64,000 nt of DNA from Saprospiraceae bacterium (GTDB lineage Bacteria > Bacteroidota > Bacteroidia > Chitinophagales > Saprospiraceae), in NCBI GenBank assembly GCA_022841345.1, contig JALHRR010000012.1:1-64000 (forward strand), read 5' to 3'. Numbering within the stretch: the first letter of the stretch is position 1; every line of letters begins with the position of its first letter. Shown one piece after another: positions 3,797-64,000 of this stretch. The notes under the pieces were generated by a model. That model was not told where the DNA came from, did no database searches, and saw only the letters and a list, made by a program, of their open reading frames with translations. Made by a program: the position numbers and the translations under genes.

Positions 3797-6604
3797 ATGT
3801 CTTGTAAGTTGTACATTTTAAACTGTGTGTTTTGCTTGTTGTCATTTGGACTTTACGGGCAAACTATATCGGGAACGGTCAGTTCAGGCTCAGATAAAGA
3901 GCCTATGATCGGAGCAAGTGTGGGTCTCAAAGGAACTACCATTGGTGTGTTAACTGACCTGGACGGTAAATTTGAATTCAACTATAGCGGAGATTTTCCG
4001 GTCATTTTGGAAATTTCTTATCTGGGATATATTACCCAGGAATTAGAATTGCGGCAAGGCACCAATGACATCAAGATCATTTTAGAAGAAGAGAGTATTC
4101 AGATCGCGGATGTGATAGTGAAGGGACAAAGAGTCTCCGATAAGCAAAAGGCTGCACCTCTGACAGTAGAATCACTTGACTTATTGGCAATAAAAGAAAC
4201 AGCCTCAGATAATTTTTATGATGGTTTGGGAGCATTGAAAGGAGTAGATCTCACAGCTGCCAGCCTTGGGTTTAAAATCATCAATACACGTGGATTCAAC
4301 TCTACCTCTCCTGTCAGGTCTTTACAAATCATAGATGGAGTAGATAATCAGGCTCCGGGTTTGAATTTTTCTCTTGGAAATTTTCTGGGATCCTCCGATC
4401 TGGATGTTGTCAAAGTAGACATCATCGCAGGGGCAAGTTCAGCATTTTATGGACCAAATGCATTCAATGGGGTAATCAGTATGGAAACAAAAGATCCATT
4501 TTTTCAAAAGGGTCTTTCAGTGCAAACCAAAGTGGGAGAGCGCCAGTTATTTGAAACCAGCCTGAGATGGGCAGATGTAGTAAAAAATAAAAAAGGACAG
4601 GAGTCCTTTGGGTACAAACTGAATTTCTTCTATTTAAAGGCTTACGACTGGGAAGCTGATAATTATGATGCTGTATATGAAACCGAAACCGGCCCCGGTA
4701 ATCCCGGCAGGTATGATGCCGTGAACATTTATGGTGATGAATATTTTCCGGGACTTGATTTTTCAGGAAGTGCTCCCTGGACAAGACCGGGATTGGGTCA
4801 GTCACACAGAATTGGATATAGAGAATTGGATTTAGTGGATTATAATACTAAAAATATTAAAGCTAATGCGGCCTTTCATTTTCGAACAAATCCAGCATTA
4901 GGCTTCCAATCACCAGAATTGGTCGTATCATCCAGTTTTGGGAGTGGAACTACAGTATATCAAGGTGATAACAGATTCAGTCTACGCAATATATTGTTCT
5001 TTCAAAATCGGATTGAGTTCAAAAAAAGAGAAAAGTATTTTATAAGAATGTATGCCACTCATGAGAATGCAGGAGATTCATATGATCCTTATTTCACAGC
5101 ATTAAGATTGCAGGAAGAGGCGAAAACAGATGACAGATGGGCAGTAGATTATTCCGGATTTTGGTCATCAAATATCAGTAATAAAATTAAGCAAATGGGT
5201 TATCCCCAATTGATATTTAACCCGGAGACTGGAAATTTTGATTTTGACAGAGATTCAGCCAGCAGATGGATTGCAGCCTTTCAAGATTCTTTAACTATAT
5301 GGCACACACAAGCTGCTGCTTCTGCCAACACTGCAAACCCATTAAATACGGATTCGAAAGATTTTTACGAGCCAGGCACAGAACGCTTCAATGAAGCTTT
5401 TAACAGAATCAGAAGTGCTAAATCTAATGATGAAGAGAATGGTACGCGATTTTTTGATCAATCTGCGCTATATCATATACACGGAGAATACAAGTTCAAT
5501 CCAATATTCACAGATGAGATAACAGTAGGTGCTAATGGTAGAATGTATCGGCCAAATTCAGATGGAACTATATTTACAGACACAGCAGGAATTCGGATCA
5601 CGAACCTGGAAGTCGGTATGTATGCCGGAATTAAAAAAATGTTTTTTAATGACAGATTAACTGGTAGTGCAACACTTCGGGCAGATAAAAATCAAAATTT
5701 CAACTGGATATTTACTCCCGCAGCATCACTTGTGTATCAACCGGATGAGCTAAATTTCTTCAGAGCTTCCTTTAGCTCTGCACTTAGAAATCCTACTTTA
5801 GCAGATCAATATCTGAACCTTAATGTGGGAAGGGCAATATTAGCCGGCAATTTGAATGGATGGGATAATTTGATAACAGTCGAATCACTTAGGGACTATT
5901 TTATTACTCTTGATCCAAATGTGCTGTCATACTTTAATGTTGCTCCTGTAAAACCGGAAAGGGTGAAGACCTTCGAACTTGGTTACAGAACCACCCTTTT
6001 TGATCAACTATTTTTAGATGCCGGTTATTATTATAGTGTATACGATGATTTTCTTGGGTTTAATATAGGAGTCATTGCTGAATTTGGTGCATCGGGGCTC
6101 CCAACGGATATTCAGCCTTACAGAGTATCAGCTAACTCCCTTAATCAAGTAACTACCCAGGGGTTTAATGTTGGTTTAAGTTATTTCTTTGCAAAATATT
6201 TCATGTTCTCTGGAAATTATTCATTCAACAAGCTAAATAAAGTATTTGAAGATGATCCAATAATTCCGGCTTTCAATACGCCAGAGCATAAGTTCAATCT
6301 TGGATTTTCAGGAAGAAATCTTGACTTCAGAATTGGAGGTATTCATGTAAAAAATCTTAGTTTTAATATTAATTACAAATGGATAGAAGGATTTCTTTTT
6401 GAAGGCTCTCCTCAATTCACTGGCTTGATTCCAACTTATGATTTAGTGGATGCTCAAGTCAACTATGGGGTAGAAAAATGGAACACCACATTTAAACTTG
6501 GTGCATCGAATATTTTGAATAATAAACAGTTTCAAACCTATGGTGGACCCCGAATAGGGAGATTAGCGTATTTTTCTATATTATATGAATTTAAGAATAA
6601 GTAG
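3797..6604 (+). CDS. TonB-dependent receptor with carboxypeptidase-regulatory-like domain
   Basis: An outer-membrane active transporter for a ligand that cannot be identified from sequence. A longer reading frame opens at 3716, but the methionine at 3797 is preferred because it is followed directly by a signal peptide (MSCKLYILNCVFCLLSFGLYG, cut before QTISG). Order of domains: a CarbopepD_reg-like beta-sandwich (TISGTV...GVLTDLDGKF), a TonB plug with INTRGF and IDGVD, then a large beta-barrel ending in aromatic-rich strands (YFSILYEFKNK). Length is normal for the family. It is followed after 34 bases by a T9SS-secreted hydrolase-like gene, so the two probably form an operon. There is no SusD partner next to it. 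Confidence 0.9.
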   Translation: MSCKLYILNCVFCLLSFGLYGQTISGTVSSGSDKEPMIGASVGLKGTTIGVLTDLDGKFEFNYSGDFPVILEISYLGYITQELELRQGTNDIKIILEEESIQIADVIVKGQRVSDKQKAAPLTVESLDLLAIKETASDNFYDGLGALKGVDLTAASLGFKIINTRGFNSTSPVRSLQIIDGVDNQAPGLNFSLGNFLGSSDLDVVKVDIIAGASSAFYGPNAFNGVISMETKDPFFQKGLSVQTKVGERQLFETSLRWADVVKNKKGQESFGYKLNFFYLKAYDWEADNYDAVYETETGPGNPGRYDAVNIYGDEYFPGLDFSGSAPWTRPGLGQSHRIGYRELDLVDYNTKNIKANAAFHFRTNPALGFQSPELVVSSSFGSGTTVYQGDNRFSLRNILFFQNRIEFKKREKYFIRMYATHENAGDSYDPYFTALRLQEEAKTDDRWAVDYSGFWSSNISNKIKQMGYPQLIFNPETGNFDFDRDSASRWIAAFQDSLTIWHTQAAASANTANPLNTDSKDFYEPGTERFNEAFNRIRSAKSNDEENGTRFFDQSALYHIHGEYKFNPIFTDEITVGANGRMYRPNSDGTIFTDTAGIRITNLEVGMYAGIKKMFFNDRLTGSATLRADKNQNFNWIFTPAASLVYQPDELNFFRASFSSALRNPTLADQYLNLNVGRAILAGNLNGWDNLITVESLRDYFITLDPNVLSYFNVAPVKPERVKTFELGYRTTLFDQLFLDAGYYYSVYDDFLGFNIGVIAEFGASGLPTDIQPYRVSANSLNQVTTQGFNVGLSYFFAKYFMFSGNYSFNKLNKVFEDDPIIPAFNTPEHKFNLGFSGRNLDFRIGGIHVKNLSFNINYKWIEGFLFEGSPQFTGLIPTYDLVDAQVNYGVEKWNTTFKLGASNILNNKQFQTYGGPRIGRLAYFSILYEFKNK

Positions 6605-8188: not shown

Positions 8189-8340
8189 GTTGCTGGATGC
8201 TGGTTGCTGGTTAAACAGCCGGGTTAAGGAGGTGAGGAGGTTAGAAGGTTAGGTAACAGCCGGTTGAACAGCCCTTGCTGGTTGCTGGTTAACAGCCAAT
8301 TTACGATTTACGATTGAAGCCATGAAACAGCCGGGAAGAA

Positions 8341-8386
8341 GCTGCAAGCTGCACCGTGTCCCCAACCCTTTGGGGAAGCCACAAGC
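8341..8386. repeat. 46-bp repeat with CCCCAA/TTGGGG hairpin, copy 1
   Basis: This segment is repeated at 9101-9146 with no visible difference. It contains the small hairpin CCCCAA-ccct-TTGGGG between two 7-bp-period blocks. Confidence 0.8.
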
Positions 8387-8480
8387 TGCAAAGAAGCAGC
8401 CGGGAAGAAGGCATAAGTTATAAGGAGTAAGTAGTAAGTGAACAGCCAGGAAGAAGAAGCTGCGAGCTTCGAGCCATGAG

Positions 8481-8775
8481 CTGCGAGCTTCGAGAAAACA
8501 GCCGGGAAGAAGGCATAAATTGTAAGGTGTAAATAGTAAGTGAACAGCCGGGAAGAAGGAGCTGCGAGCCATGAGCTTCGAGCTGCGAGAGTACAGCCGG
8601 GAGAAGCTGCTTCCTTGTCTTCGCGTCAGCCATCACCTCCGAAATAAATTGGCTGCAAAGCAGTTAATTTATTTCGGAGACATCACTTTTTCAGGGCTAG
8701 CTCTCTGAAAAAACACTTGTGGTGAGGAATCGAACCATCACCTTTCAAGCCGAAGGCACAGAAAAACATCACCTC
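8481..8775. repeat. About 295-bp duplicated segment, copy 1
   Basis: The segment matches 9421-9710 closely, with scattered substitutions and small indels. It holds 7-bp-period modules followed by a full ACATCAC-linked hairpin array. Differences inside the hairpin arms are partly compensatory. Confidence 0.75.
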
Positions 8776-8823
8776 GCTTCGACTATATCTCAGGATATAA
8801 CTGTTAGCACTTGCAGTCGAGGC
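8630..8823. repeat. ACATCAC-linked hairpin array, locus 2
   Basis: Heptamers: CCATCAC 8630-8636, ACATCAC 8680-8686, degenerate ACACTTG 8713-8719, CCATCAC 8735-8741, ACATCAC 8766-8772. Module A has perfect 14-bp arms 8637-8650 and 8666-8679. Module B (8687-8712) pairs TTTTTCAGGG with CTCTGAAAAA, the fourth G pairing a T. An extra module D pairs GGTGAGG (8721-8727) with CC(A)TCACC (8735-8742). Module C is 8742-8765. A last palindrome (8773-8823) has CGACT/AGTCG and ATATC/GATAT stems. Confidence 0.8.
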
Positions 8824-9100
8824 TAGTGTGGGTGGCGTGTGTGCTCATAGCTGGAAGCTACTTCGAGCAGTGTGGGGAAAAAGCTGCAAGCTGCAAGCCG
8901 CAAGCTGCAAGGTAGCAGCCGGGAAGAAGGAGTAAGGAGTAAGGGGTAAGTCATAAGTAAACAGCCAGGTGGGGGTGGTGGGTGTGCTCGTAGCTGGAAG
9001 CTACTCGAAGCAGGATTGGTGAATTGGTGAATTGGTGAATTGGTGAATGAAACAGCCAATTGAGCAGCCAATGAAACAGCCGAACAGCCGGGAAGAAGAA

Positions 9101-9146
9101 GCTGCAAGCTGCACCGTGTCCCCAACCCTTTGGGGAAGCCACAAGC
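9101..9146. repeat. 46-bp repeat with CCCCAA/TTGGGG hairpin, copy 2
   Basis: Second copy of the element at 8341-8386, 760 bases away. Confidence 0.8.
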
Positions 9147-9420
9147 TTCAAGTTGAACAGCCAAACAGCCGCTGCTAGCTTCTGGCCTCTGGCCTCTGGC
9201 TCAACAGATAACAGCCAGTAAGGCAGAGAGCGATGGATAAATTTGCCAATTTAGATGTCAAATTCAATTGAAGACTGATTTATATCTATGCATATCTTGT
9301 TGCCAAATACGAAAAATTTGCAAATTATTAGAGGAAGCAGCCGGGAAGAAGTCATAAGTAGTAAGGTATAAGTAGTAAGTGAAGAGCCAGGAAGAAGAAG
9401 CTGCGAGCCATGAGCTTCGA

Positions 9421-9710
9421 ACTTCGAGAAAACAGCCGGAAGAAGGCATAAGTTGTAAGGTGTAAATAGTAAGTGAACAACCGGGAAAAAGAAGCTGCGA
9501 GCCATGAGCTTCGAGCTGCGAGAGTACAGCCGGGAGAAGCTGTTTCCTTGTCTTCGCGTCAGCCATCACCTCCGAAATAAATTGGTTGCGAAGCAGTTAA
9601 TTTATTTCGGAGACATCACCTTTTCATGGCTCGCTCCATGAAAAGACACTTGTGGTGAGGAATCGAACCATCATCTTTCAAGCCGAAGGCACAGAAAGAC
9701 ATCACCTCTC
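9421..9710. repeat. About 290-bp duplicated segment, copy 2
   Basis: Counterpart of 8481-8775. It carries the third hairpin array. Confidence 0.75.
9563..9705. repeat. ACATCAC-linked hairpin array, locus 3
   Basis: Heptamers: CCATCAC 9563-9569, ACATCAC 9613-9619, degenerate ACACTTG near 9646, CCATCAT 9668-9674, ACATCAC 9699-9705. Module A arms are 9570-9583 and 9599-9612 (14 bp, perfect). Module B (9620-9645) pairs CTTTTCATGG with CCATGAAAAG perfectly. Module C is 9675-9698 with CTTTC/GAAAG and GCC/GGC. The order A-B-D-C equals locus 2. Confidence 0.8.
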
Positions 9711-9930: not shown

Positions 9931-10162
9931 GGGGCACACCCAAGAAAAGTAAAAAGTAAAAAGTTGAAAGTTGAAAGTTGAAAGTTGAACAGCCAGTAAG
10001 TTATAAGAGATTAGATATAAGAGATGAGATGAACCGTGATATTCATTTATAATCAAGTCAGCGGTGAATGATAGAGACGCATTACATTGCACCTCGTTTT
10101 GAAACAAACAGCCTGTTTTAATGTAAAGTACGGGAATGATAAAAGCAAGCATAAAAGTGGCC

Positions 10163-42290: not shown

Positions 42291-42492
42291 AAGAAGCTTC
42301 AAGCCGCAAGCTTCAAGCCGCAAGGTAACAGCCTGTTGGATAACCGCTTTTGGCTGTTGGCCATTTGCTGTTAGCAACAGCCGAGTTGTGAGTTGTGAGT
42401 ATGAAGCTTATCCCGGCCTTTTCCTGGGAAGAAATGTCTTTCAGGAACTCACGATGAAATGCTTTTCTCGCAGTTCGATGAACTCGCGAAGC
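42291..42492. repeat. 7-bp-period modules and hairpins next to array 4
   Basis: AAGCTTC/AAGCCGC units (42294-42323), the tag ACAGCC, a GGCTGTT/GGCCATT/TGCTGTT block, again ACAGCC, then GAGTTGT units (42384-42400). This is the same style as the island at 8.2-10 kb. A further hairpin, TCGCaGTTC with GAACtCGCGA, lies near 42466-42489. No gene is visible. Confidence 0.7.
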
Positions 42493-48955: not shown

Positions 48956-49618
48956 TCAAGGAACTACCCGAAAGCAATAGCCACCGAATCTGTGAAATCG
49001 CTGGTCTGGTTTTTCTAATACCCAGGTATTAAAGTGCTTATCCGGGCTTGATGATAAAAGATGAATATTATTAGTTGAACTCCCATTGAGCTTAACAGCA
49101 CCTTCCACCTCTGTGTGTCTGCATTGGCCTTCAAAGGTTTGACCTTTTCCATATTCAAATAATCCTATTGCATGTTTAAAAAAATAAACTCCAATTTTCT
49201 TTAAAACAATTGAATATTTAAGATCATATACATTATTTTCATATAGATATTGTCCTACGAGTGACACTGCACCACTTGAGTACATATACAAATTATAATC
49301 ATACTCATTTTCTAATAAGACGTCAAATTCAGAAAAATTATCTGTAATTGCTGCTGTATCATCGATTCGTACAATAATGGTTTCTGGATAAAATAACCAG
49401 TTCTCTAATTTATACTGTTTGTTTGTTTGTTTTTCATAGACCATGTCATCAAAAGTAGAATGAATTGTTATTGTATCACCAACTCTAAAAGTTTCCAGGG
49501 CCGCAGAGAGAGTAGCCGGTATTTCAAACACATGAGAACCAGGGAAATCACATTCTTTTCTGGTGCAAGAATGAATTATTAAAATTAAAACCGTAAGCTG
49601 TAAATACTTTAATGGCAT
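48956..49618 (-). CDS. Lipoprotein of unknown function
   Basis: 220 residues. The N-terminus MPLKYLQLTVLILIIHSC is a lipoprotein signal with the cysteine at 18, followed by TRKECDFPG. The mature part is beta-rich, with no domain that I recognise (TIHSTFDD, RFGGYCFRVVP). It follows the metallopeptidase-like lipoprotein gene after 32 bases on the same strand, so the two are probably co-transcribed. It converges with the acetyl-CoA hydrolase gene after 31 bases. Confidence 0.75.
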   Translation of the reverse strand: MPLKYLQLTVLILIIHSCTRKECDFPGSHVFEIPATLSAALETFRVGDTITIHSTFDDMVYEKQTNKQYKLENWLFYPETIIVRIDDTAAITDNFSEFDVLLENEYDYNLYMYSSGAVSLVGQYLYENNVYDLKYSIVLKKIGVYFFKHAIGLFEYGKGQTFEGQCRHTEVEGAVKLNGSSTNNIHLLSSSPDKHFNTWVLEKPDQRFHRFGGYCFRVVP

Positions 49619-49650: not shown

Positions 49651-51591
49651 TTAATATTCATCAAATAATGTGTTAACCTGAAATTGAGTATTCCCAGTTG
49701 ATCCTAAATAATTAGAAATTAAAACTTGCCTGAAGTCTTCAACAGAAGTTACCATTGGCGTCAAACTTGAAAACATTTGACCAATAGTAAACCCCGAAAC
49801 TGCATCATCTAAAATTGTACAATCAGTTCCATCTTGATTACATGCGGATACTTCTATACCATTTCTAAGAAAAGTTTCTTCACCAACATCTATTAGATCA
49901 TGGTATAATCCAATAGGTATGTGATTTGAATTAGCATTCCTTGTCCTTTCTAATCGAACTTCCCAAGTTCTTACTCCACTGAAGTTGAATCCATAAGTTC
50001 TATGTGTATAAGTCATTCCAATAAATTCAGCCCAGGACTCACAAATGCTTATCAGGGGTGCCCCTATACTATTTTGATCTCCATGACCATCAGCTACAAC
50101 CTCAGCAATAATTAAATTTTCCCAAAATATAGGTCCCACCTTGTGGAAATGAGACGCATGCGCATATTCATGATAAGCCAGGTTTTTCAGCTCATCTGAG
50201 GTCAGATAATTGATACCTATTTTAACATCGGGCATATATGCAATTGCCGCATTCCATCCAATGTATCCAATGAGTAAATGAAAAGGATTTAAAAAATAAA
50301 AGGAGTGAGCCATAGCAGCCCCGAGAGTAGTTCCTATTGGGTGAAACTTATTCATTGTGGCATAACCATACCTTGTACTCCTTCCCACAAAAACATCGAG
50401 ATTACTTGGTGGAGGTAAAATACCGTCATTGGCTGCAAAATCATGAAATTCATGCAATGCATTATTAACTGTTGCAGCTCCCCAATATAGATGTGCAGAA
50501 GTACCCTGATTGTTCCACATATCAAAATTATCTGATATGTTATTAAATACCGGGCCATTTATTACTCCTACATAATCCTTAATAGGTACCGCCCACTCCC
50601 ATGCTGCTCTCACTCCTGCTCTTGCTCCTCTGATAGTTATTCTGGGAGAAGTAAACTTAACCCACATCCATGCAATACCTTTATATCGTCTATTGACTCT
50701 AAAGCAACCATTATCATCCGTCCAAACTTCATCTTCACTAAAGAAATTATCCTTCAATATAACTTTAACTCTTCTTACTCCTCTCCATCCAAGTTCTGTA
50801 TCCATTACGTTAATACATCCTCCAGGTTTACGTTGATCGCTAAAAACCACGCATCCGCATCCGTTTGTAGTAAGACCATTGGGTGGTGGTGGTGGATAAG
50901 TATAAGAATTGCATTCAATACTGTAAGATGGTCCATGAAATTCATCAAAATAATTACACTCCTCACCCTGACTATCAATGATAAATGAACGTCCCGGTGT
51001 ACCCTGAATATATTCAGTGCATTCACAATGATCTGATTTCTGTGAAGTCTCAATTCCATTACCACCTGTATAAATCGTATAACCAACAACGTCAGGATCT
51101 AAATCCACCCTAGTTATTGCTTGCCTGATGATGGCTTCATTGGGAGAATTCAAGTGCAATTCACTTAAAACGGAATAGGACACTGAAGGAATGGTTTTAT
51201 CTATCGGAATAACAGCATATAGTACAGGCATGTCCGTAAATGAAGCACCGGAAGGCATGTAATAATCACCCATAACTATTACTTCTTTATCCATTGGATA
51301 GTCATACATATTGAATTCACTGTTAAATAATAATTTGACCTGCTCAATATTCACAGGGTTAAATTGTATATAACGATGTGTAACAGGCAGAATATAGGAA
51401 GATTGTGGGAATAATTCAGAAAAGGCTGCCCTGAAATTTGCTATTGCGTATGGATTTGCTTTTGTATTTCCTAAAACTGTCAAGACCCCGATGGTATCTT
51501 CTCTTTCCATGGATGTTCCACCACGAACAAAACTGTTGGAAACGGTAGAAAATAGATACTCCTCAGTTTGTACCTGATTAGTTGTGTCCAT
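49651..51591 (-). CDS. Metallopeptidase-like lipoprotein, leader out of frame (phase-variable candidate)
   Basis: The open frame from the ATG at 51591 gives 646 residues without a signal peptide. Upstream in the same frame the codons read YTFLLLILCFIILPSCRKDL, a lipoprotein h-region and lipobox, but no start codon precedes them: the frame runs into a TAG at 51676-51678. An ATG at 51709 starts MKLSSIIQASLERKK in another frame, and a (CTTT)6 tract lies between. The mature protein has an HEYAH motif near residue 473 (HExxH zinc site) and ESWAEFIG some 50 residues later, a plausible gluzincin third ligand. A cysteine-rich segment and a short beta-sandwich (EVWTDDNGCFRVNR) come before it. The family is not known to me. 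Confidence 0.75.
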   Translation of the reverse strand: MDTTNQVQTEEYLFSTVSNSFVRGGTSMEREDTIGVLTVLGNTKANPYAIANFRAAFSELFPQSSYILPVTHRYIQFNPVNIEQVKLLFNSEFNMYDYPMDKEVIVMGDYYMPSGASFTDMPVLYAVIPIDKTIPSVSYSVLSELHLNSPNEAIIRQAITRVDLDPDVVGYTIYTGGNGIETSQKSDHCECTEYIQGTPGRSFIIDSQGEECNYFDEFHGPSYSIECNSYTYPPPPPNGLTTNGCGCVVFSDQRKPGGCINVMDTELGWRGVRRVKVILKDNFFSEDEVWTDDNGCFRVNRRYKGIAWMWVKFTSPRITIRGARAGVRAAWEWAVPIKDYVGVINGPVFNNISDNFDMWNNQGTSAHLYWGAATVNNALHEFHDFAANDGILPPPSNLDVFVGRSTRYGYATMNKFHPIGTTLGAAMAHSFYFLNPFHLLIGYIGWNAAIAYMPDVKIGINYLTSDELKNLAYHEYAHASHFHKVGPIFWENLIIAEVVADGHGDQNSIGAPLISICESWAEFIGMTYTHRTYGFNFSGVRTWEVRLERTRNANSNHIPIGLYHDLIDVGEETFLRNGIEVSACNQDGTDCTILDDAVSGFTIGQMFSSLTPMVTSVEDFRQVLISNYLGSTGNTQFQVNTLFDEY

Positions 51592-51709
51592 TAAATCCTT
51601 CCTGCAGGAAGGCAGTATTATGAAGCAAAGTATTAAAAGGAGAAAGGTGTACTTTCTTTCTTTCTTTCTTTCTTTCTAGTGAAGCTTGAATGATGGATGA
51701 AAGTTTCAT
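51592..51709 (-). other. Split leader of the metallopeptidase-like lipoprotein gene
   Basis: Reading from ATG 51709 gives MKLSSIIQASL and then repeated ERKK encoded by the tract. The remaining distance to the main frame is 118 bases, one more than a multiple of three. Loss of one CTTT unit (114) or gain of two (126) joins both parts into one frame and yields a complete leader with a charged n-region, hydrophobic core and LPSC lipobox. Confidence 0.7.
51652..51675. repeat. (CTTT)6 tetranucleotide tract
   Basis: Six uninterrupted CTTT units (AAAG on the coding strand) within the leader of the lipoprotein gene. Tracts of this kind change length by slipped-strand mispairing. Confidence 0.95.
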
Positions 51710-54683: not shown

Positions 54684-57600
54684 CTAAAACTTCATTACTT
54701 TATATTCCTCCATCAATCCATTCTCATGGATAAATCTGACCATTAATATGGACGTATTCACATTCCGCACATCTTTCATCAGATAATATCTGCCGTTTCT
54801 TTCCATAACTCTTACCTCTCTGTGCACTTCGCGTCCATAAGCATCCAGTATTAATACTGTAAATTGACCCTCAGCCTTCACCTTGCCATCAATGTATAAT
54901 TCATTGTGTGACGGATTTGGGTACAGTAAAATGTCTTCCATAATTTGACTTTGTCCTTCAGGTTCGCCCATAGTACACAATACTTCCAGCTGACATTCAG
55001 ACATACATCCATTTTCATCAATTACAGTCAGTGTAATAGTTACGCGGGTAAATCCTACGGAAATCAAAATTGAAGAGCTTCCCTGTCCGGAATTAATCGT
55101 ACAACTTCCACCTTCAATTTCCCAGAAGTACTGGAATCCCGGCTGGCCGCCGGTGACATTAGCATCTACCTGAATATCCTCCCCATTGCAGATCATAGGA
55201 TCTATCAATAATATTTCACAATTGAAAGGCTCCCGATCCCGGATTTCTACTCTCTGATTATGCACACTGGCATTACCGCAGGCATCTGCAGCTGTCCAGG
55301 TCCTTGTAATGATGGTTCTTCCGTTTACCTGAGAAGTCTTTTCAGTATAGGTCAGATTTACATCACTACATGCATCTTTTGCAACAGCTTCAGGCATATC
55401 CGGGCTTGTGCAGAATAAAATAGTATCCCGTGGAGCTTCTGTAAATAAAGGCGACTGAGTATCCACCCAGATTACCTCATATTGCATTTGACCTGAATTT
55501 CCGCAGGCATCTGTTACCAAAACCTTATGTCTGTGAACTGAATAATAGCCAGATTCATTGCAATCATCCATGATATGAACATCAAGTAATAAGGAAGTAT
55601 TCAAGCTGGCGGCACAACCACCATTCACTTGAACTAAATCAGCACTAACATCTGTTTCATCGCCACATTCTCTGTAGAAAACCTGACCATTGTATAAATC
55701 TCCAAATTCTTCAGAAAACACTTCGACTTGGAGTGGTTTGGACTGATTCATGACCACTGTTTGCTCAAATTCATACAAAATATCGCAGCTGCTAATCACG
55801 CTGAATATCCTGCGATATCCCCATTGCAAGTCATCACATTCTTCACTAAGCGGAACAATTCGCATGGTACTGCTCAATTCTTCACCTGTACACTGATCGG
55901 TAAACCTTGGACTGCCCAATAAAGTCAGATCTTCATTTTCAATACAAACGATGGACTCCATGCCTTCCATTACTGGTGCGCCTGTATTGTGAATGATTAA
56001 TTCCTGCGTTGCGCTGGTTTCATTTCCGCAAGCATCAATAGCAACTATTTCGCGTTTGATCATCATGAACTCCGGACATTCCCTGTTTTCACGACTGATC
56101 TCAACGATGGACCAGGTAATACTTCCGCACAAATCAGTTACTTCCGGATCAGGAATTTCCTGACCACATTGCAAATTCACCACAGGATCCAGATTTACAA
56201 GAGGGCCTTTCGTGTCTGTGATTTTTACATAGACAATAAATTCCGCCTCCTGTCCGCATTCAGTTGTAGCAATCCAGCGAGCCCGAATAAGTTGCAGATA
56301 TCCATTTTCACAATTTGTGTCCTCTATCATTGCTTCATCAAAATCCAGCTCCATTCCCAAACCGCATGGACTGATCACCTGAGCATTTTGTTCAGACAAT
56401 CCGCTCATTCCTTCGGAATTTTTTTGACTACACTCAATCGAAAGCGTATCGCCTGATTTCATTAAATCTCCGGAATCATTGTATATGAAAAATTGTGGAA
56501 GCGCATTTTCTGCTACTATAATTTGTTCGTATGTATTGCTGTTTCCACAATAGTCCTGAACTGTAACTAGCCTGCGAATATCCTCAGATTCAGGATTGCA
56601 GATTCCTTTCACAATTTCATCTACAAATGTAAATTCAAGACCCTGGCAGTTTTCTTCCACATGCCATTGATTTTCATTGAAAACCGGATCACAACTTAGT
56701 TCCAGCCAATTGGTAATAATGGGCGCTGTTGTATCCTGAAGGTCAACATAGACAATGTATTGTTCACTGACCCCACAATCATCGGTTGCCGTCCAGATTA
56801 ATTCGTAGCGTTGCAGATATTCTCCGGTTCTGCAATCTCCATATCCTGCAAAGTTTCTTTCGAAAGAAAGTGAGATAGATTGATCCGCACAAGCTCCGAA
56901 TACCTGTACACTGCTGTTATTCAGCTGGTAAACCCATGAAGGAAATCCCTGCTGACAATCAATGAATATACTTTCACCGGATGCTACATTTTCCAGATAA
57001 GGACTCAAAATGAAAATTTCCAGACCTGTAGTATCAGTAACGTGAATACGCTGGGTATCTCTGGCAATGTTGCCACAATTATCCACCGCTTCCCAAATTC
57101 TGAGTAAAATGTATTCACGGCTGCAGACTCCTTCTATTATTTCTTCGATCATATAAAGATTGGAGCATTCGCATTCATCTGTTGCAACTACAATATCCGC
57201 CGGCAATTGACCCGTCAACCCGCACGGAATCATCGGTAGCAGAGAGGGAATATCCTGGCATGCTACTGTGATATCATCCGGTACACCTGTGATTACAGGT
57301 GGAATTGTATCTACTACGTTAATGGAAATACTGTAAGAACTGGAATTTCCACATACATCAGTAGCAGTCCAAACATGAGTGATCTGCATCATGTAACCAT
57401 CTGTGGCACAATTACCTTCTGATACAGTTTGCGAATATGAAATACTTATTGTCTCTGAGCAGTTATCCTGAACGATGATGTCGGTTTCAGAATTGAGCAC
57501 CGGAAGTTCCCAGTCATTTGTCTGGCTTTCACATTGAATATTGACACTTGATCCGCTCACATATTGCTCAAAAAATGGATGAATAATCTCAATTTCCGGA

Positions 57601-60600
57601 GCCGTATTATCCTGAACGATCACAGTTGAAACATGAGTGCTGGTATTACCACATTGGTCTGTCGCAATCCAGGTTCTGGTCAATGTATATTCACTGGCAC
57701 AGGCTCCATTCGTTCTGACTTCGGAGAAAGTAATATTTACAGTACCACAGTTATCAGTAGCCGTAACTTGAGGAGCTGCAGGAACTGCATCGCATTCAAC
57801 AGTCAAATTTCCAGATAAAGTACCGTTAAAAACCGGTGCAGAATTGTCCTGAATAGTCAGCACCTGAATATGTTGTTGTGAGTTACCACAGCCATCCGTT
57901 GCAGTCCATATGCGGGTCAGGGTATATTCATTGGCACAGGTTGCATTACTTATTGTTTCAGCAAAAGTGACATTTGCAGCGCCACAATTATCGCTTGCCG
58001 CAAGCACCGGAGCTATCGGAATATTATCACATTCTACAATCGCATTTGTGGGCATGACACCTGAAAAAACTGGTGCTTCATTATCCAAAACTGTGATTGT
58101 CTGAACATGCTGTGAAGTATTCCCGCATTCATCAGTGGCGGTCCAGGTACGAATCATTGTTCCTGAACCCGTACAGATTCCGCCAGCCCATGATTCATTG
58201 AATTGAATATCCACACTCAACCCACAGGATCCACTGGCTGAAAGTGTTGGGGCAGCGGGTATTTCGTCACAAGAAACTGAAATATTCGCAGGCAGTGTAC
58301 CTTCAAATTCTGGCGCAGTCAGACTTTGAACCTGAATTATTTGAACATGAGTTGAGGCATTACCACATTCATCTGTAGCAGTCCAGCTGCGATGGATTGT
58401 ATAGTTTCCAGCGCAGGATCCTGCTACTTCATTTTCAGAAAATGAAACTTGAGCAGCACCGCAATTATCCGTTGCAGTTAATAGTGAAGCAGCCGGAATG
58501 ACATCACAATCTACTGTGACATTCGCAGGTAAAACTCCATTAAATACCGGAGCTGAATTATCTGTTACATTAATTATTTGCTGATGAGAGCTGGTATTTC
58601 CGCATTCGTCTGAAGCGGTCCATGTTCTGACCAATTGATATTCTGTTGCGCAGGATCCCGCATTGTTAGTTTCTGAAAATGTTATTGCTGCATTGCTGCA
58701 TTGATCCACAACACTCAAAGTCGGTACCGAAGGAACTCCATCACAGGATACCGTAGTATCGAAAGGTAAATCTCCGAGGATGACCGGCCCTATATTATCT
58801 CCTACAGAAATAGTCTGTACATGCGTATTTGCATTTCCACACTCATCACTTGCAGTCCATGTTCTGGTTATAATATAAGAACCGGGACAAATTGCTTCCA
58901 CTATAGTTTCCGTGAATTCAATGTCGACATCACTACAATTATCAGTTGCTGTTAAAACCGGAGGTTCATCAACACCAATTGGGGTACATTCAGAACTGAT
59001 ATTCTGCGGTAAATCAGTATCCCAAACCGGTGCAGTCTGATCTATGATAGCTATATATTGTGTATGTGTTGCAGTATTTCCGCAATTGTCAGTAGCGGTG
59101 AAGGTTCGGGCTATCGTGTAATTATTGCCACAAAGACCCGGGCTACTTTGATCAGAATAAATAATATTGAGTCCTGTGCAGCAATGGTTGATAACTTGTG
59201 GTAAAACAAGTGCAGGCACGCCACCACAATCAAGAACCTGATTGTCAGGTGTCCAGCTAAATACAATTTCAGTGCAACAGATTGCTCCTGCCAGTACGAC
59301 ATAAGAACCTGTTGTGATGCAACTATTACCATCAGTCACTGACACATTATAAGTACCGGGAGCCAGATTGGTGAGAACTGCCTGATTACTTGAAAATAGA
59401 GGATGTTGCGGACTTGACCATGCTATACTGAATGGACCAATTCCTCCACTTAAATTCAGGGTAATGCCTCCATCCGATATCAGATTACAAGTTTCATGCG
59501 TAACCTGCGCGGATAAAGTGGGGTTCGAGATTGAGACCTGCACCTGATCAGAGGTGGTACATCCGTATTGACTGGTGACCTGAACTGTATATAAAGTATT
59601 TTGAGGCGGATTAGCAAATGGCTGTGGAGAGCTGGTACTGCTCAGGAAATAATTCGGACTCCATTGATAAGTGTTATTTCCTGCTGGAACTGAGCCTAAT
59701 CGGGTCACAGCATCCCGGCAAATAACCACATCTGCCCCTGCATTGAAGTTCGGAATAGGCCGGATGTTTACCTGATGGAAGGAATAATCCGTGCAGCCTA
59801 AAAATTCCATATTCATTTGCCATGGCTTAGGATCCACTTGTAAAGTGTACAATGTACTCACCGCTGGCAATGCTTGTGGCAGAGGAGAATTAGGATCATC
59901 CAAACCAAAAGACGGACTCCATAAAAATGTGTTATAAGATGTGTCCTGAAAAGATGTAAAACCTAAAGTGACACCATTGGTATCTCCATCGCAAAAATTA
60001 TAAGTTTGGTCCGGCAATGCATTATTATAATGCTGAGAAAAACTTAAGCTATGGTTATTATAGTTGCAGTTTGGATTGGTAGAGCTGTTATCCACCACAT
60101 ATAAATTAACCGATCCGTAACCATAGGAAGCAGGAAAACTAATGACAGGATTGGCCACATTGGGGTCACTTATCATTACATGTGAATCTCCTGTCTGCCA
60201 ATTATAAGAATAATTGGAGTTATTGGACAAGGGTACTGCATATATTAAATCATCTGAATTACAATAACTTATGAAGTTTGGGAGATCAATTTCCGGTCTT
60301 GTCACAGGACTGACATTGATGTTGTAGTTATAATTTTTTGAACATCCACTGTCTGTATGTGTGACAGTAAGGGTAATAGAACCTGAAGTATTCATTATAA
60401 AATTAGCATATGTCTGGTTGGTTGGTATTGGTCCTGTGATAGCAACAGGTCCCCATGTGAAAGTAAAATCACTGCCATTCAGACTAGAAGGATTATAATT
60501 TAAAAAAGCACTAACACTTACCATATCACCTGCACAAATATTATTGCTGCCATATACTTCCCAACCGAAGTCAATTACCTGGATATCTATATTATCTGAA

Positions 60601-63600
60601 TTGCTGCAACCGGTTGCAATATCAGAAGCTGTTAGTGTATATGAATAATTCCCGGGCTGACTTGCAATAAAGGTTGGCTGAGCGAGAGTACTATTGTTTA
60701 AATATAAACCCGGAGTCCAGTCATAAATTACACCTGGCTGGGCGGCTGTCCCCAACTGTGTATTAGCTCCTCTGCATAAAATCAGATCAGGTCCGGCATC
60801 AGCATCCGGAGAAGGAATAGGTACTATGTCTATGAAAACAGTATCCCTAACCACACAACCCGTTGCAGCATTCAATCCGGTCAATATATAATGACCGGCC
60901 TGAGGTGGACAAATGTTTGTGGTGGGGCTATTGGGTAATTGTACTCCATCCTGAGGAAACCAGAAGAATGAGCTGAAAGTCCCGATAATTGCAGGATTAG
61001 GATTAATGCAGCTATTTTGGCAAATCAGCAAATTATCTTCCGGTATGATGATTTCTCCGACAGGTTGGACATTGACAATTATGTCAAAATTGCGGATACA
61101 AGATCCATCATCAACACTCAACACTAAAGTATGCACTCCTGCACTTCCACCGGAAAAAACCGGATTTGGGATCATCGGATCATCCAGCCAATCTACAGGA
61201 GACCAGGAATATGTAAGTGATATATCAGGATTTGAAGGTCCTATAAGTACTGAGGATCCGGCACATATAGTGTGCTGGGTGCTGCTGAAAATTACATCAA
61301 AGTCAGGACTCACCTGTACTGTATCTCTGTCTGTACAACCAAAACTATTCGTTGCGGTTAACACATAATTTGTCTGCGCTGAAGGTAAGGCCAGGGGATT
61401 AGGAACATTATTTGCTGAAAGTCCCTGACCTGGCGACCAACTATATGAATACCCGGGGTCAACTACTGCAGGCCCTATTAGTACTCCTGATCCACAGACA
61501 GTGACATCTGGTCCGGCATCTGCAACAGCTGCAGGTACAATTGTGATCAGCACGGTATCAGCAAATGGACAATCAGGGGTTTCATAATTCAATATATATT
61601 CCGTAGTAACAGGAGGATATACTTCCGGATTTGAAATGGAAGGGTCAGATATATTATCTGCAGGTGTCCAGTTGTAAGTAAAACCATCGATGGCAGAAAT
61701 GCCAATCTGAATAGAATCACCTTCGCACAACTGCCTGTCAGGACCTGCCAGATTTTGTTTTTGTTCCAGAACTATAATAGCGGTATCCCTCCAGAAAATG
61801 CAATCCACTGTATTCACTGCTGTGAGATAGTATGTGCTTGTGCCACTGATTGTGGCTGCAGGCTGTGCAACTCCGGGATCACTCAGTCCGGCAGCCGGAC
61901 TCCAGTAGTATTCATATCCGGGTTCAGGTTCAGGCCCGATGATATAGCTACCGGCAACACAAACTGTAAGATCCAGATCTGAAACAGAAGGCACTTCGTC
62001 TCCATCTGAAACAGTAATAGAGACCTGATCAAACCCATCACAACCAGGACTTCCCGGCACACTTAAATAGACTGTATATATTATATTGCTTTCCAGCGTT
62101 ACCACCGGGTTTGCGGAATGCGGATCATCCAATCCGGTTGATGGGACCCACAAATACACAACTCCCTGATCACTGAGGTCATCACTTCCCAATGTGACTT
62201 GTTGTCCCTCACATCCTGTAATATCAGGACCGGCATCAACAATCAGATTGGGGTATTCTGTAAAAGTAACTTCTGCTTCATCAGTGCATCCCGTCAAAGG
62301 ATCACTGACCAAAAGTGTGTAAGTCGATTGTCCAACTCCTCCAAAAAGTTGCAGCGTCGGCTGTGCAACATTTGGATCACTCAATCCGCCTGAAGGTGTC
62401 CATAAATAAGTGAAATAGTTTGGTCCCGGAGATCCAATAGTACTATTAAAAGTGCCACAAAAAATCTGGTCATTTCCGGGTTCTGATGAAGGTTGTCGAA
62501 TATTAACAACTTGCTGGAATGTTATACTGCAATTTGAAATAGAATCCGTTTTTGTAATCGTGTAAGTAGTAATCCCCGGAGGCAACTGTGCCCAGTTTAG
62601 AGTAGGGTAATTGTGATTTGCATTTTGTGTCCCTGTAATGTTTAGACCGATCGCCGGGGACCATTGATAGTACATTCTTGCTTGTCTGACAGGCTCACCC
62701 AATTGGATAAAGTTCTGTGCCTGATTTTCTGGGCATATATTAATATCCGGCGTATCAAAAACCTGCGGAGCACTGGGGTAAAGAAAGTCTATCAAAATAT
62801 GACAATTTCCTTGGGCCGGGGTGGAATAGTTAACTTGATATATTCTGTCATTATAAATGGATTCATTCAGGCAAAATGTATTGGCATTCAAAGTGATTTC
62901 AGGATATGCGTTATCCAGCGTGAATGCATAGTTATAGGGATTGTCTATTTCAAGACAATATGGAATGGGCTGGGCTTCTGTCTCACAATCCATAGGCATA
63001 TAAATTGTTAGACGGGGATAAGGACATGGATTGCATGGACAAGCTGTCATATATGAAATGCATGTATATCCATCATATGTCACTTCTCTTCTATAATAAG
63101 TACACTCAGTTGGAAAAACAAAAGGGTTAGCTAAAGTCTCCTGACCAATAATAGAATTAAAGTCTCCGGATTCAACAACGGTGAGATATTGAAACCGCCC
63201 ACAACTCTGATCCACATGACCTATATATCCTGAATCACAAACATTTCCGCCATACATGGGTAAAATATCAAAGGTGATTGTGTCGATATCTGCTATGCAC
63301 ACACCGGTAGGGTCTTTAGCTTCCAAAATAAAATTAACTTGTCTGCAGCTGTCGTGTCCATAGTATTGCCATGCATTATAAGTCGGATTTGGTGCGAAGT
63401 ATTCGCTCAGCCACTGTTTGGGATACCATTCATAAATCACCTGAGGATCAGGTATATTGGGTCCCAAAACAGGATATTCATTTTCACAAATTACTCTGTT
63501 TAAGCCCGCATCAGCTACAGGTTTCAGGCGTACAATAATAGTCACTTCATCTTCCAGTGTACATGGTCCATCAGGGTTGGTCACATAGATTCTGTAAGTA

Positions 63601-64000
63601 GTTGTTTCAGTAGGGGCAACCCGAACCCGGGCTATATTATTCGGACCTACAATACTGGTCATATCACCGGAGACTACCTCCCATAAATATTGAATCGGTA
63701 CAATATTGGGCAATGGAGTGGATCCGATCTGCGTAGTATCTCCTTCACATATTGTTTTATCCGCACCTGCATTGGCACGTAAGACCCAGACTGTTGTATT
63801 TTTTACAACCTGACATCCTGCATCGTCCACTACAGTAAGGGTATATAATGTGGTTTGAGCAGGAGAGGCTATTGGGTTTTCTGCATTCGGATTATTGAGT
63901 GAACCAGAAGGACTCCATGTAACTGTATATCCTGGAGTATTAGCAATCACCGTAGGACTTCCACCAAGGATTGCCTGGTCTCCCGGACAGATCATAAAAG
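54684..64000 (-). CDS. Second giant T9SS-secreted PKD/SprB/HYR repeat protein (5' end outside window)
   Basis: At least 3103 residues; the frame stays open to the window edge and the methionine at 63995 is probably internal. Order: about 16 PKD/Ig-like repeats of some 85 residues (pattern C-xG-DS-xx-G...WTP-xx-GLSDP-xx-NP...), to about residue 1480; one SprB-type repeat (ISNPTLSAQVTHETC...GTYNVSVTDGNSC) at about 1490-1570; four-cysteine HYR-like repeats with DECGN-T-HVQTI to about 2140; longer Ig-like variants to about 2900; a PKD-like domain from about 2923; and a type A sorting domain from about 3020 (LLYPNPSHNELYID to EYKVMKF). The last five domains have the same order as in the 8208-residue protein, so the two are paralogues. 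Likely a surface adhesin or matrix protein. Confidence 0.9.
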   Translation of the reverse strand, partial: FMICPGDQAILGGSPTVIANTPGYTVTWSPSGSLNNPNAENPIASPAQTTLYTLTVVDDAGCQVVKNTTVWVLRANAGADKTICEGDTTQIGSTPLPNIVPIQYLWEVVSGDMTSIVGPNNIARVRVAPTETTTYRIYVTNPDGPCTLEDEVTIIVRLKPVADAGLNRVICENEYPVLGPNIPDPQVIYEWYPKQWLSEYFAPNPTYNAWQYYGHDSCRQVNFILEAKDPTGVCIADIDTITFDILPMYGGNVCDSGYIGHVDQSCGRFQYLTVVESGDFNSIIGQETLANPFVFPTECTYYRREVTYDGYTCISYMTACPCNPCPYPRLTIYMPMDCETEAQPIPYCLEIDNPYNYAFTLDNAYPEITLNANTFCLNESIYNDRIYQVNYSTPAQGNCHILIDFLYPSAPQVFDTPDINICPENQAQNFIQLGEPVRQARMYYQWSPAIGLNITGTQNANHNYPTLNWAQLPPGITTYTITKTDSISNCSITFQQVVNIRQPSSEPGNDQIFCGTFNSTIGSPGPNYFTYLWTPSGGLSDPNVAQPTLQLFGGVGQSTYTLLVSDPLTGCTDEAEVTFTEYPNLIVDAGPDITGCEGQQVTLGSDDLSDQGVVYLWVPSTGLDDPHSANPVVTLESNIIYTVYLSVPGSPGCDGFDQVSITVSDGDEVPSVSDLDLTVCVAGSYIIGPEPEPGYEYYWSPAAGLSDPGVAQPAATISGTSTYYLTAVNTVDCIFWRDTAIIVLEQKQNLAGPDRQLCEGDSIQIGISAIDGFTYNWTPADNISDPSISNPEVYPPVTTEYILNYETPDCPFADTVLITIVPAAVADAGPDVTVCGSGVLIGPAVVDPGYSYSWSPGQGLSANNVPNPLALPSAQTNYVLTATNSFGCTDRDTVQVSPDFDVIFSSTQHTICAGSSVLIGPSNPDISLTYSWSPVDWLDDPMIPNPVFSGGSAGVHTLVLSVDDGSCIRNFDIIVNVQPVGEIIIPEDNLLICQNSCINPNPAIIGTFSSFFWFPQDGVQLPNSPTTNICPPQAGHYILTGLNAATGCVVRDTVFIDIVPIPSPDADAGPDLILCRGANTQLGTAAQPGVIYDWTPGLYLNNSTLAQPTFIASQPGNYSYTLTASDIATGCSNSDNIDIQVIDFGWEVYGSNNICAGDMVSVSAFLNYNPSSLNGSDFTFTWGPVAITGPIPTNQTYANFIMNTSGSITLTVTHTDSGCSKNYNYNINVSPVTRPEIDLPNFISYCNSDDLIYAVPLSNNSNYSYNWQTGDSHVMISDPNVANPVISFPASYGYGSVNLYVVDNSSTNPNCNYNNHSLSFSQHYNNALPDQTYNFCDGDTNGVTLGFTSFQDTSYNTFLWSPSFGLDDPNSPLPQALPAVSTLYTLQVDPKPWQMNMEFLGCTDYSFHQVNIRPIPNFNAGADVVICRDAVTRLGSVPAGNNTYQWSPNYFLSSTSSPQPFANPPQNTLYTVQVTSQYGCTTSDQVQVSISNPTLSAQVTHETCNLISDGGITLNLSGGIGPFSIAWSSPQHPLFSSNQAVLTNLAPGTYNVSVTDGNSCITTGSYVVLAGAICCTEIVFSWTPDNQVLDCGGVPALVLPQVINHCCTGLNIIYSDQSSPGLCGNNYTIARTFTATDNCGNTATHTQYIAIIDQTAPVWDTDLPQNISSECTPIGVDEPPVLTATDNCSDVDIEFTETIVEAICPGSYIITRTWTASDECGNANTHVQTISVGDNIGPVILGDLPFDTTVSCDGVPSVPTLSVVDQCSNAAITFSETNNAGSCATEYQLVRTWTASDECGNTSSHQQIINVTDNSAPVFNGVLPANVTVDCDVIPAASLLTATDNCGAAQVSFSENEVAGSCAGNYTIHRSWTATDECGNASTHVQIIQVQSLTAPEFEGTLPANISVSCDEIPAAPTLSASGSCGLSVDIQFNESWAGGICTGSGTMIRTWTATDECGNTSQHVQTITVLDNEAPVFSGVMPTNAIVECDNIPIAPVLAASDNCGAANVTFAETISNATCANEYTLTRIWTATDGCGNSQQHIQVLTIQDNSAPVFNGTLSGNLTVECDAVPAAPQVTATDNCGTVNITFSEVRTNGACASEYTLTRTWIATDQCGNTSTHVSTVIVQDNTAPEIEIIHPFFEQYVSGSSVNIQCESQTNDWELPVLNSETDIIVQDNCSETISISYSQTVSEGNCATDGYMMQITHVWTATDVCGNSSSYSISINVVDTIPPVITGVPDDITVACQDIPSLLPMIPCGLTGQLPADIVVATDECECSNLYMIEEIIEGVCSREYILLRIWEAVDNCGNIARDTQRIHVTDTTGLEIFILSPYLENVASGESIFIDCQQGFPSWVYQLNNSSVQVFGACADQSISLSFERNFAGYGDCRTGEYLQRYELIWTATDDCGVSEQYIVYVDLQDTTAPIITNWLELSCDPVFNENQWHVEENCQGLEFTFVDEIVKGICNPESEDIRRLVTVQDYCGNSNTYEQIIVAENALPQFFIYNDSGDLMKSGDTLSIECSQKNSEGMSGLSEQNAQVISPCGLGMELDFDEAMIEDTNCENGYLQLIRARWIATTECGQEAEFIVYVKITDTKGPLVNLDPVVNLQCGQEIPDPEVTDLCGSITWSIVEISRENRECPEFMMIKREIVAIDACGNETSATQELIIHNTGAPVMEGMESIVCIENEDLTLLGSPRFTDQCTGEELSSTMRIVPLSEECDDLQWGYRRIFSVISSCDILYEFEQTVVMNQSKPLQVEVFSEEFGDLYNGQVFYRECGDETDVSADLVQVNGGCAASLNTSLLLDVHIMDDCNESGYYSVHRHKVLVTDACGNSGQMQYEVIWVDTQSPLFTEAPRDTILFCTSPDMPEAVAKDACSDVNLTYTEKTSQVNGRTIITRTWTAADACGNASVHNQRVEIRDREPFNCEILLIDPMICNGEDIQVDANVTGGQPGFQYFWEIEGGSCTINSGQGSSSILISVGFTRVTITLTVIDENGCMSECQLEVLCTMGEPEGQSQIMEDILLYPNPSHNELYIDGKVKAEGQFTVLILDAYGREVHREVRVMERNGRYYLMKDVRNVNTSILMVRFIHENGLMEEYKVMKF

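Follow-up and report, generated by a model that had tools for sequence, protein, structure and literature searches.

A leader out of frame with its start

The locus considered here lies on the minus strand of a 64,000-nucleotide stretch of Saprospiraceae DNA, called the window, and it raises the question of why an intact gene body of 646 codons, termed M, is out of frame with the start codon that precedes its lipoprotein leader. Read from the ATG at 51709, 11 codons (MKLSSIIQASL) are followed by six GAAA units and a further G, by the leader YTFLLLILCFIILPSC-RKDL and by the ATG at 51591 (in letters, on the minus strand, ATGAAACTTTCATCCATCATTCAAGCTTCACTA, then (GAAA)6 G, then TACACCTTTCTCCTTTTAATACTTTGCTTCATAATACTGCCTTCCTGCAGGAAGGATTTAATG). 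TRF reports the tract at 51652-51677 as 6.5 copies of GAAA, 100% perfect. The two ATGs are 118 bp apart and hence out of frame with each other, and the leader (FIILPSC followed by RKD) is likewise out of frame with ATG 51709, the tract standing between them. The frame of ATG 51709 terminates as a 43-aa peptide, and in the body frame a TAG stands shortly before the tract.

The preliminary description had held that six CTTT units part ATG 51709 from the leader with 118 bases to the main ATG, that five or eight units would restore one continuous frame, and that the sole in-frame start at six units stands after the lipobox. The mismatch is real and the arithmetic right, since leader and start are joined only where the number of units equals 2 modulo 3; no ATG, GTG or TTG was found in the body frame ahead of Met 51591, which does stand after the lipobox. 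It is proposed that the tract is a phase-variation switch, currently out of frame (OFF). The features of the locus are collected in Table 1.

Table 1. Features of M and of the adjoining gene p, in window coordinates.
Feature	Position	Strand	Basis or remark
ATG and n-region codons (MKLSSIIQASL), last base adjoining the tract	51678..51709	-	lipobox in frame only at 5 or 8 units
Perfect tract (GAAA)6 + G, CTTT on the plus strand, plus one matching flanking base	51652..51677	-	TRF
Lipoprotein leader YTFLLLILCFIILPSC-RKDL, body frame; lipobox Cys at 51604-51606	51592..51651	-	frame reading
M body, 646 codons, intact despite the frame mismatch with the start	49651..51591	-	ORF reading
Conserved N-terminal domain of M (about residues 35-165)	51097..51489	-	constant when the C-terminus is swapped
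Predicted thermolysin-like protease domain of M (residues 256-646)	49654..50826	-	AF2 and VIA-align; much swapped with p in relatives
HEYAH zinc motif (H474, E475, H478)	50158..50172	-	invariant columns over 48 Bacteroidota homologues
E518, candidate third ligand	50038-50040	-	invariant column; ligand role inferred
p, 220-aa lipoprotein gene immediately 3' of M	48956..49618	-	neighbour at 72 of 77 M 3' ends
(AAAC)4.2 tract within the coding sequence of p, presently in frame	49416..49432	-	TRF

Non-triplet repeats in the leaders of homologues

A pure repeat occupies the leader region of 21 of 73 M homologues, mostly from Saprospiraceae. The units vary (G, C, AC, TG, TGTA, CAAC, AAGC, CTTCTCG, CAGGTATC and others), and in all 21 they measure 1, 2, 4, 7, 8 or 10 bases, never a multiple of three. 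The tetranucleotide tracts are GAAA6.5 in the window, TGTA6, CAAC9.8 and AAGC8.8; those of one or two bases are G9-10 (three), C8, C10, A9, AC12, AC5.5, AC11.5 (of which the 230-bp leader window takes in 10 copies), TG6.5, TG7.5 and again TG6.5; and those of longer units are TTCTACCG14.8 (where the contig ends in the tract), CAGGTATC5.2, CTTCTCG4.4, ACAACCGATC2.9 and AGAACAC4.7, all lengths being assembly values and many of the assemblies metagenomic. With kinship ignored in both comparisons, the 21 of 73 M leader windows compare with 1 of 427 M body windows (Fisher p 3.5e-18) and with none of the 81 leader windows of p (p 2.7e-8).

When the leaders of the homologues are read in three frames, lipoprotein leaders appear ahead of a conserved N-P-Y region. 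Orthologues that begin at the internal methionine were looked for, and the leaders instead stand upstream of that point. An automated rule places 12 of 31 repeat-carrying leaders in frame against 59 of 72 others (p 4e-5, kinship ignored; a third would be expected at random tract length), and this rule errs on a few copies, such as L007, which is out of frame when read, and L050, called ON through an internal Met. Repeats are borne by in-frame copies at L053 and L062 and by the first copy of L055, the last with AC5.5 in frame where L056, about 95% identical at the N-terminus, has AC11.5 out of frame. Three further copies (L017, L054 and L068) have a leader mismatched to the body with no obvious repeat, possibly from short homopolymers or from other causes.

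The copies L033 and L045 are each out of frame at a C6/C7 run; over 240 codons of the N-terminal part they differ by 25 synonymous changes and 2 nonsynonymous ones, a dN/dS of 0.02. Given this excess of synonymous change they are not decaying, and the pair is under purifying selection. Taken together, the repeats at one place, the differences in length and state and the selection on this pair make it very likely that M is phase-variable through repeat length. The central claim of the preliminary description, a phase-variable lipoprotein gene, thus gains support from many homologues in which that place holds other non-triplet repeats, in frame and out of frame, from the constraint on an out-of-frame pair and from related AC tracts that vary in length.

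Tetranucleotide tracts in the host genome

The host genome (G000) comprises 5.87 Mb in 310 contigs, 1.53 Mb of which were sampled for the general background of tracts. The GAAA tract of the M leader is the longest tetranucleotide tract of the window, and the sampled 1.53 Mb contain just three tetranucleotide tracts that reach 16 bp, two of them in the M-p locus, which argues that its presence in the leader is more than chance. Four or more GAAA units in succession are found in only three places in the whole 5.87 Mb, each time in a signal-peptide leader that is out of frame. The two other places belong to unrelated ORFs for large secreted proteins, 893 and 1047 codons long, each mismatched to its only ATG, beta-helix-like by eye and with tails resembling T9SS sorting domains. 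In the first (L271, G000:C24:12000-22000; gene on the minus strand), (CTTT)6 stands at 6444-6468 in the signal-peptide region of the 893-codon ORF, a candidate for the second phase-variation locus of this genome. In the other (L272, G000:C66:1-14000), (CTTT)5 stands at 6062-6081 in the leader of the 1047-codon ORF, which has the T9SS-like tail, is out of frame and is a candidate for the third.

Heptamer and octamer tracts are frequent in the host genome and nearly all intergenic. Such tandem repeats (for example AAGCTGC and GCCTAAAC) lie between genes in the window at 8189-9539, 9945-9989 and 42294-42324 and also at L286 and L287, and they are a genome-wide feature. A heptamer tract beside a priA-like ORF (L252) was considered as a coding switch and ruled out, the tract being intergenic. 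The window also holds giant repetitive ORFs at 10224-34850 and 54684-63995, of 8208 and at least 3103 aa, the former built of tens of 234-bp units; these are likely to encode secreted adhesin-like proteins.

A predicted thermolysin-fold protease

The preliminary description had called the carrier of the tract an HExxH protein, and this is borne out by the HEYAH motif. Over 48 diverse Bacteroidota homologues the only invariant columns are H474, E475, H478, G504 and E518, and HExxH is kept in the M copies examined, with one Saprospiraceae copy lacking it. At E 1, sequence searches of Pfam, NCBIfam and PDB with M and p turned up nothing of use, and M had no significant match in Foldseek by itself. 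The AF2 model of M has a pLDDT of 84.8 and a pTM of 0.85, and in VIA-align its residues 256-646 match thermolysin (5fxn) with a Z of 15.6 over 251 aligned residues (rmsd 3.5, 10% identity), followed by other M4 proteases and then by M1 aminopeptidases. From the model, the C-terminal half of M is predicted to be a divergent thermolysin-fold zinc protease.

Surface lipoproteins of Bacteroidetes carry a K-(D/E)2 export signal, or LES (PMC5080379). The lipobox region of M resembles it in sequence, with C-R-K-D in the window and [KR][DE] at positions +3/+4 after the lipobox in 66 of 93 leaders.

A partner gene exchanged with the protease half

The 72 of 77 M 3' ends that are followed by p make it the regular neighbour of M. 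Its AF2 model has a pLDDT of 91.7; the fold is uncertain, with weak matches only, to beta-sandwiches (Z at most 7.6). Outside Saprospiraceae a different small lipoprotein often fills the slot of p (22 lipoprotein calls among the loci without p), and no conserved upstream partner or SitB-like gene was seen among about 90 loci with short flanks.

Close pairs of loci are 94-99% identical in the N-terminal half of M as against 19-47% in the C-terminal half. In L128/L033 the N-terminal part, the C-terminal part and p are 99, 47 and 47% identical, and in L132/L024 they are 94, 19 and 16% identical; the DNA of the latter pair is 82% identical to about residue 385 of M and unrelated from there through p. 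In L033/L045 the synonymous sites of the C-terminal part are saturated, which indicates that this part was replaced by recombination. Over 31 M-p pairs the identity of p tracks that of the C-terminus of M (Mantel rho 0.64 against a highest permuted value of 0.32, p 0.0005 by permutation; kinship ignored) and not that of the N-terminus (rho 0.04, p 0.36). These comparisons indicate that p and the C-terminal half of M are exchanged as a unit, the N-terminal half being conserved. A swap to non-homologous toxin domains was ruled out, partial matches keeping HExxH.

Pieces of the module also occur by themselves. Orphan M tails, each with its own p, lie at many loci (for example L120, L122, L125 and L133), and in Belliella kenyensis (L190:5602-8429) and Niabella drilacis (L173:1-6070) about four units of a tail and a variant small lipoprotein stand in tandem. 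Between two closely related Phaeodactylibacter loci, a unit of tail and p is present in one and absent from the other. A p gene with no M detected was counted in 35 of 99 p-bearing genomes, an upper limit, since the genome search scored few candidates per genome and an M may hide (one genome, G271, has a further M outside the table, at L342). Among these cases a remnant of an M tail is left at L324, L327 and L330, and an array of p at L323; the host genome itself has a second, solitary p at L102:13182-13802. Beyond what the preliminary description had claimed, the carrier is predicted to be a thermolysin-fold protease joined to a lipoprotein gene, polymorphic and modular across Bacteroidota.

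The p of the window contains the (AAAC)4.2 tract (TGTT on the plus strand), in which the loss or gain of one unit would shift the frame of p. No comparable tetranucleotide tract was seen among other p genes, and this one is possibly a second switch, or chance.

A proposed switchable effector with constant immunity

The account that we favour, and consider reasonably likely as a whole, is that of a phase-variable, polymorphic effector-immunity pair. Replication slippage in the repeat of the signal-peptide coding region would switch the export of M. At 5, 8 or further such numbers of GAAA units the full pre-lipoprotein would be made and lipidated at the LPSC cysteine, and the C-x-K-D signal would probably place it on the outer surface; at 6 units, as assembled, the 43-residue peptide alone would result. 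M and p would form an effector-immunity (protease-inhibitor) pair, and with repeats present in M leaders and not in p leaders, attack may be off while protection stays on. Recombination would exchange the protease half jointly with its p, as a single module, while the N-terminal half stays constant, and such swaps would leave behind the orphan modules of M tail and p and the spare p genes. We infer that the repeat slips in living cells, that M lies on the surface, acts as a protease and is toxic to neighbouring cells, that p inhibits it and that a means of delivery exists.

Effector-immunity systems are recognised by a small neighbouring gene, by its cognate co-variation, by the exchange of cassettes, by tails that have been displaced and by partners that occur alone (PMC3482391), and M-p shows each of these features. 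On this basis it is somewhat likely that M-p is an effector-immunity pair. Against this stand the C-terminal halves of M, which are always of the same protease fold where classical polymorphic toxins carry unrelated toxin domains, and the lack of any delivery machinery linked to the M loci. There may be an even chance that M-p represents a widespread, undescribed weapon of Bacteroidota, namely a repeat-switched lipoprotein effector of thermolysin fold with constitutive, co-varying immunity, exchange of cassettes and an array of former immunity genes that serves as a memory.

The same pattern could also be obtained from the diversification of a surface antigen with an obligate partner. Such a reading, which we think unlikely but deserving of weight, makes the C-terminal half and p a phase- and antigenically variable surface complex that evades phages, grazing protists or predators, with no toxin involved. 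It would account for the surface-type lipoprotein signal of M, the lipobox of p and the on/off leaders, for a diversified C-terminus with a co-varying partner, and for the same switch in two unrelated secreted beta-helix-like proteins of the host genome; it fits poorly with catalytic residues that are among the only invariant columns of the 48 homologues, with the retention of p in arrays and in 35 genomes in which no M was detected, and with the lipoprotein family after M differing between lineages. Quite improbable is a protease M for scavenging nutrients or for processing, with p as a dedicated inhibitor or chaperone that shields the cell's own envelope and with switching that just saves cost. 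The thermolysin fold agrees with it, and complexes of thermolysin-like proteases with protein inhibitors have been solved (aureolysin-IMPI, 7skm and 7skl, is among the VIA-align entries of M), but the wholesale swapping of protease half and p, the orphan tails and the p-only genomes are not what it predicts.

A further reading is a leader that is simply broken, either because M is a pseudogene or because errors of assembly account for the count of six units and for the other frameshifts. That there is a single assembled genome, that contigs end and that some out-of-frame copies have no obvious repeat are in keeping with such damage, which is nonetheless very improbable in view of the intact 646-codon body, the constraint on two out-of-frame copies, the concentration of more than ten different repeat units at one place and the existence of in-frame repeat copies. 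Programmed frameshifting, or internal initiation at ATG 51591 giving a cytoplasmic form, deserves hardly any credence, for although a Shine-Dalgarno-like AGGAAGGA lies a few bases ahead of that ATG, those bases encode the family-conserved C-x-K-D/E signal, homologues begin upstream with leaders, and the repeat unit changes from copy to copy, so that there is no common slippery site.

Comparison with known systems

Repeat-driven on/off switching is best known from a few host-adapted pathogens, and the contingency loci of Haemophilus, Neisseria and Moraxella have tetranucleotide tracts in mod, lic and hgp genes. The AGTC repeats of mod genes are one example (PMC3711429). M would share with them a repeat of non-triplet units close to the 5' end that turns translation on and off, and a product that faces the environment; it differs in belonging to Bacteroidota, in having the repeat inside the signal-peptide coding sequence and in the many units found at the homologous place within one family. 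In the literature collection that was searched, no paper on repeat-driven on/off switching in Saprospiraceae was found.

SitA/SitI, lipoprotein polymorphic toxins of Myxococcus (PMC5562445), share with M a lipoprotein effector, a conserved N-terminus, a variable C-terminus and a downstream cognate gene. In M, however, the C-terminus is always a thermolysin-fold protease, p is itself a lipoprotein and the leader is phase-variable; SitA also has SitB upstream and TraA-dependent transfer, and no SitB-like gene was seen among about 90 M loci with short flanks. The Tpe-Tpi (VgrG2b-PA0261) systems are metallopeptidase effector-immunity pairs delivered by type VI secretion, with an immunity protein that is a predicted lipoprotein in some species (PMC6899460). 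They too have an HExxH metallopeptidase whose structural relatives are thermolysin-like, and a small ORF behind it that encodes an immunity protein of the envelope, but M has its own lipoprotein leader, a large N-terminal half, phase variation and the size of thermolysin. By analogy M-p would work like SitA and Tpe-Tpi; membership in either is not established, given its own leader and constant catalytic fold.

Polymorphic toxins with Tox-MPTase or PVC-metallopeptidase domains, with Imm65 as lipoprotein immunity (PMC3482391), resemble M in a C-terminal zincin domain, a variable downstream partner and orphan C-terminal cassettes. They differ in that no RHS, CDI or PVC trafficking domain and no swap to an unrelated fold were seen in M, and in that the M and p of the window have no significant Pfam or NCBIfam match. 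With the thermolysin family M4, residues 256-646 of M share the fold (Z 15.6) and HExxH with a downstream Glu; M is set apart by identity of about 10%, by the lack of a Pfam or PDB sequence match, by an extra N-terminal half and by its lipoprotein signal. The switching here would govern a protease-immunity pair of modular build in environmental Bacteroidota, some carriers of which are in culture, and M-p would allow one to test how a cell keeps an antidote on and a self-harming weapon off, and how such pairs diversify.

Distribution of M

Viral contigs were scanned and held no relative. In a scan of genome contigs a single sequence found no relative, whereas an alignment did find relatives. 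A profile search of 398 genomes of the host family, whose named homologue-bearing records are Saprospiraceae, found M in 74, and 4 of 395 genomes in an evenly drawn sample of the phylum have it. Outside the family it occurs in Flagellimonas, Niabella, Belliella, Chitinophaga and Bacteroidales MAGs, and cultured carriers include Neolewinella lacunae, Phaeodactylibacter xiamenensis and Lewinella sp. IMCC34183.
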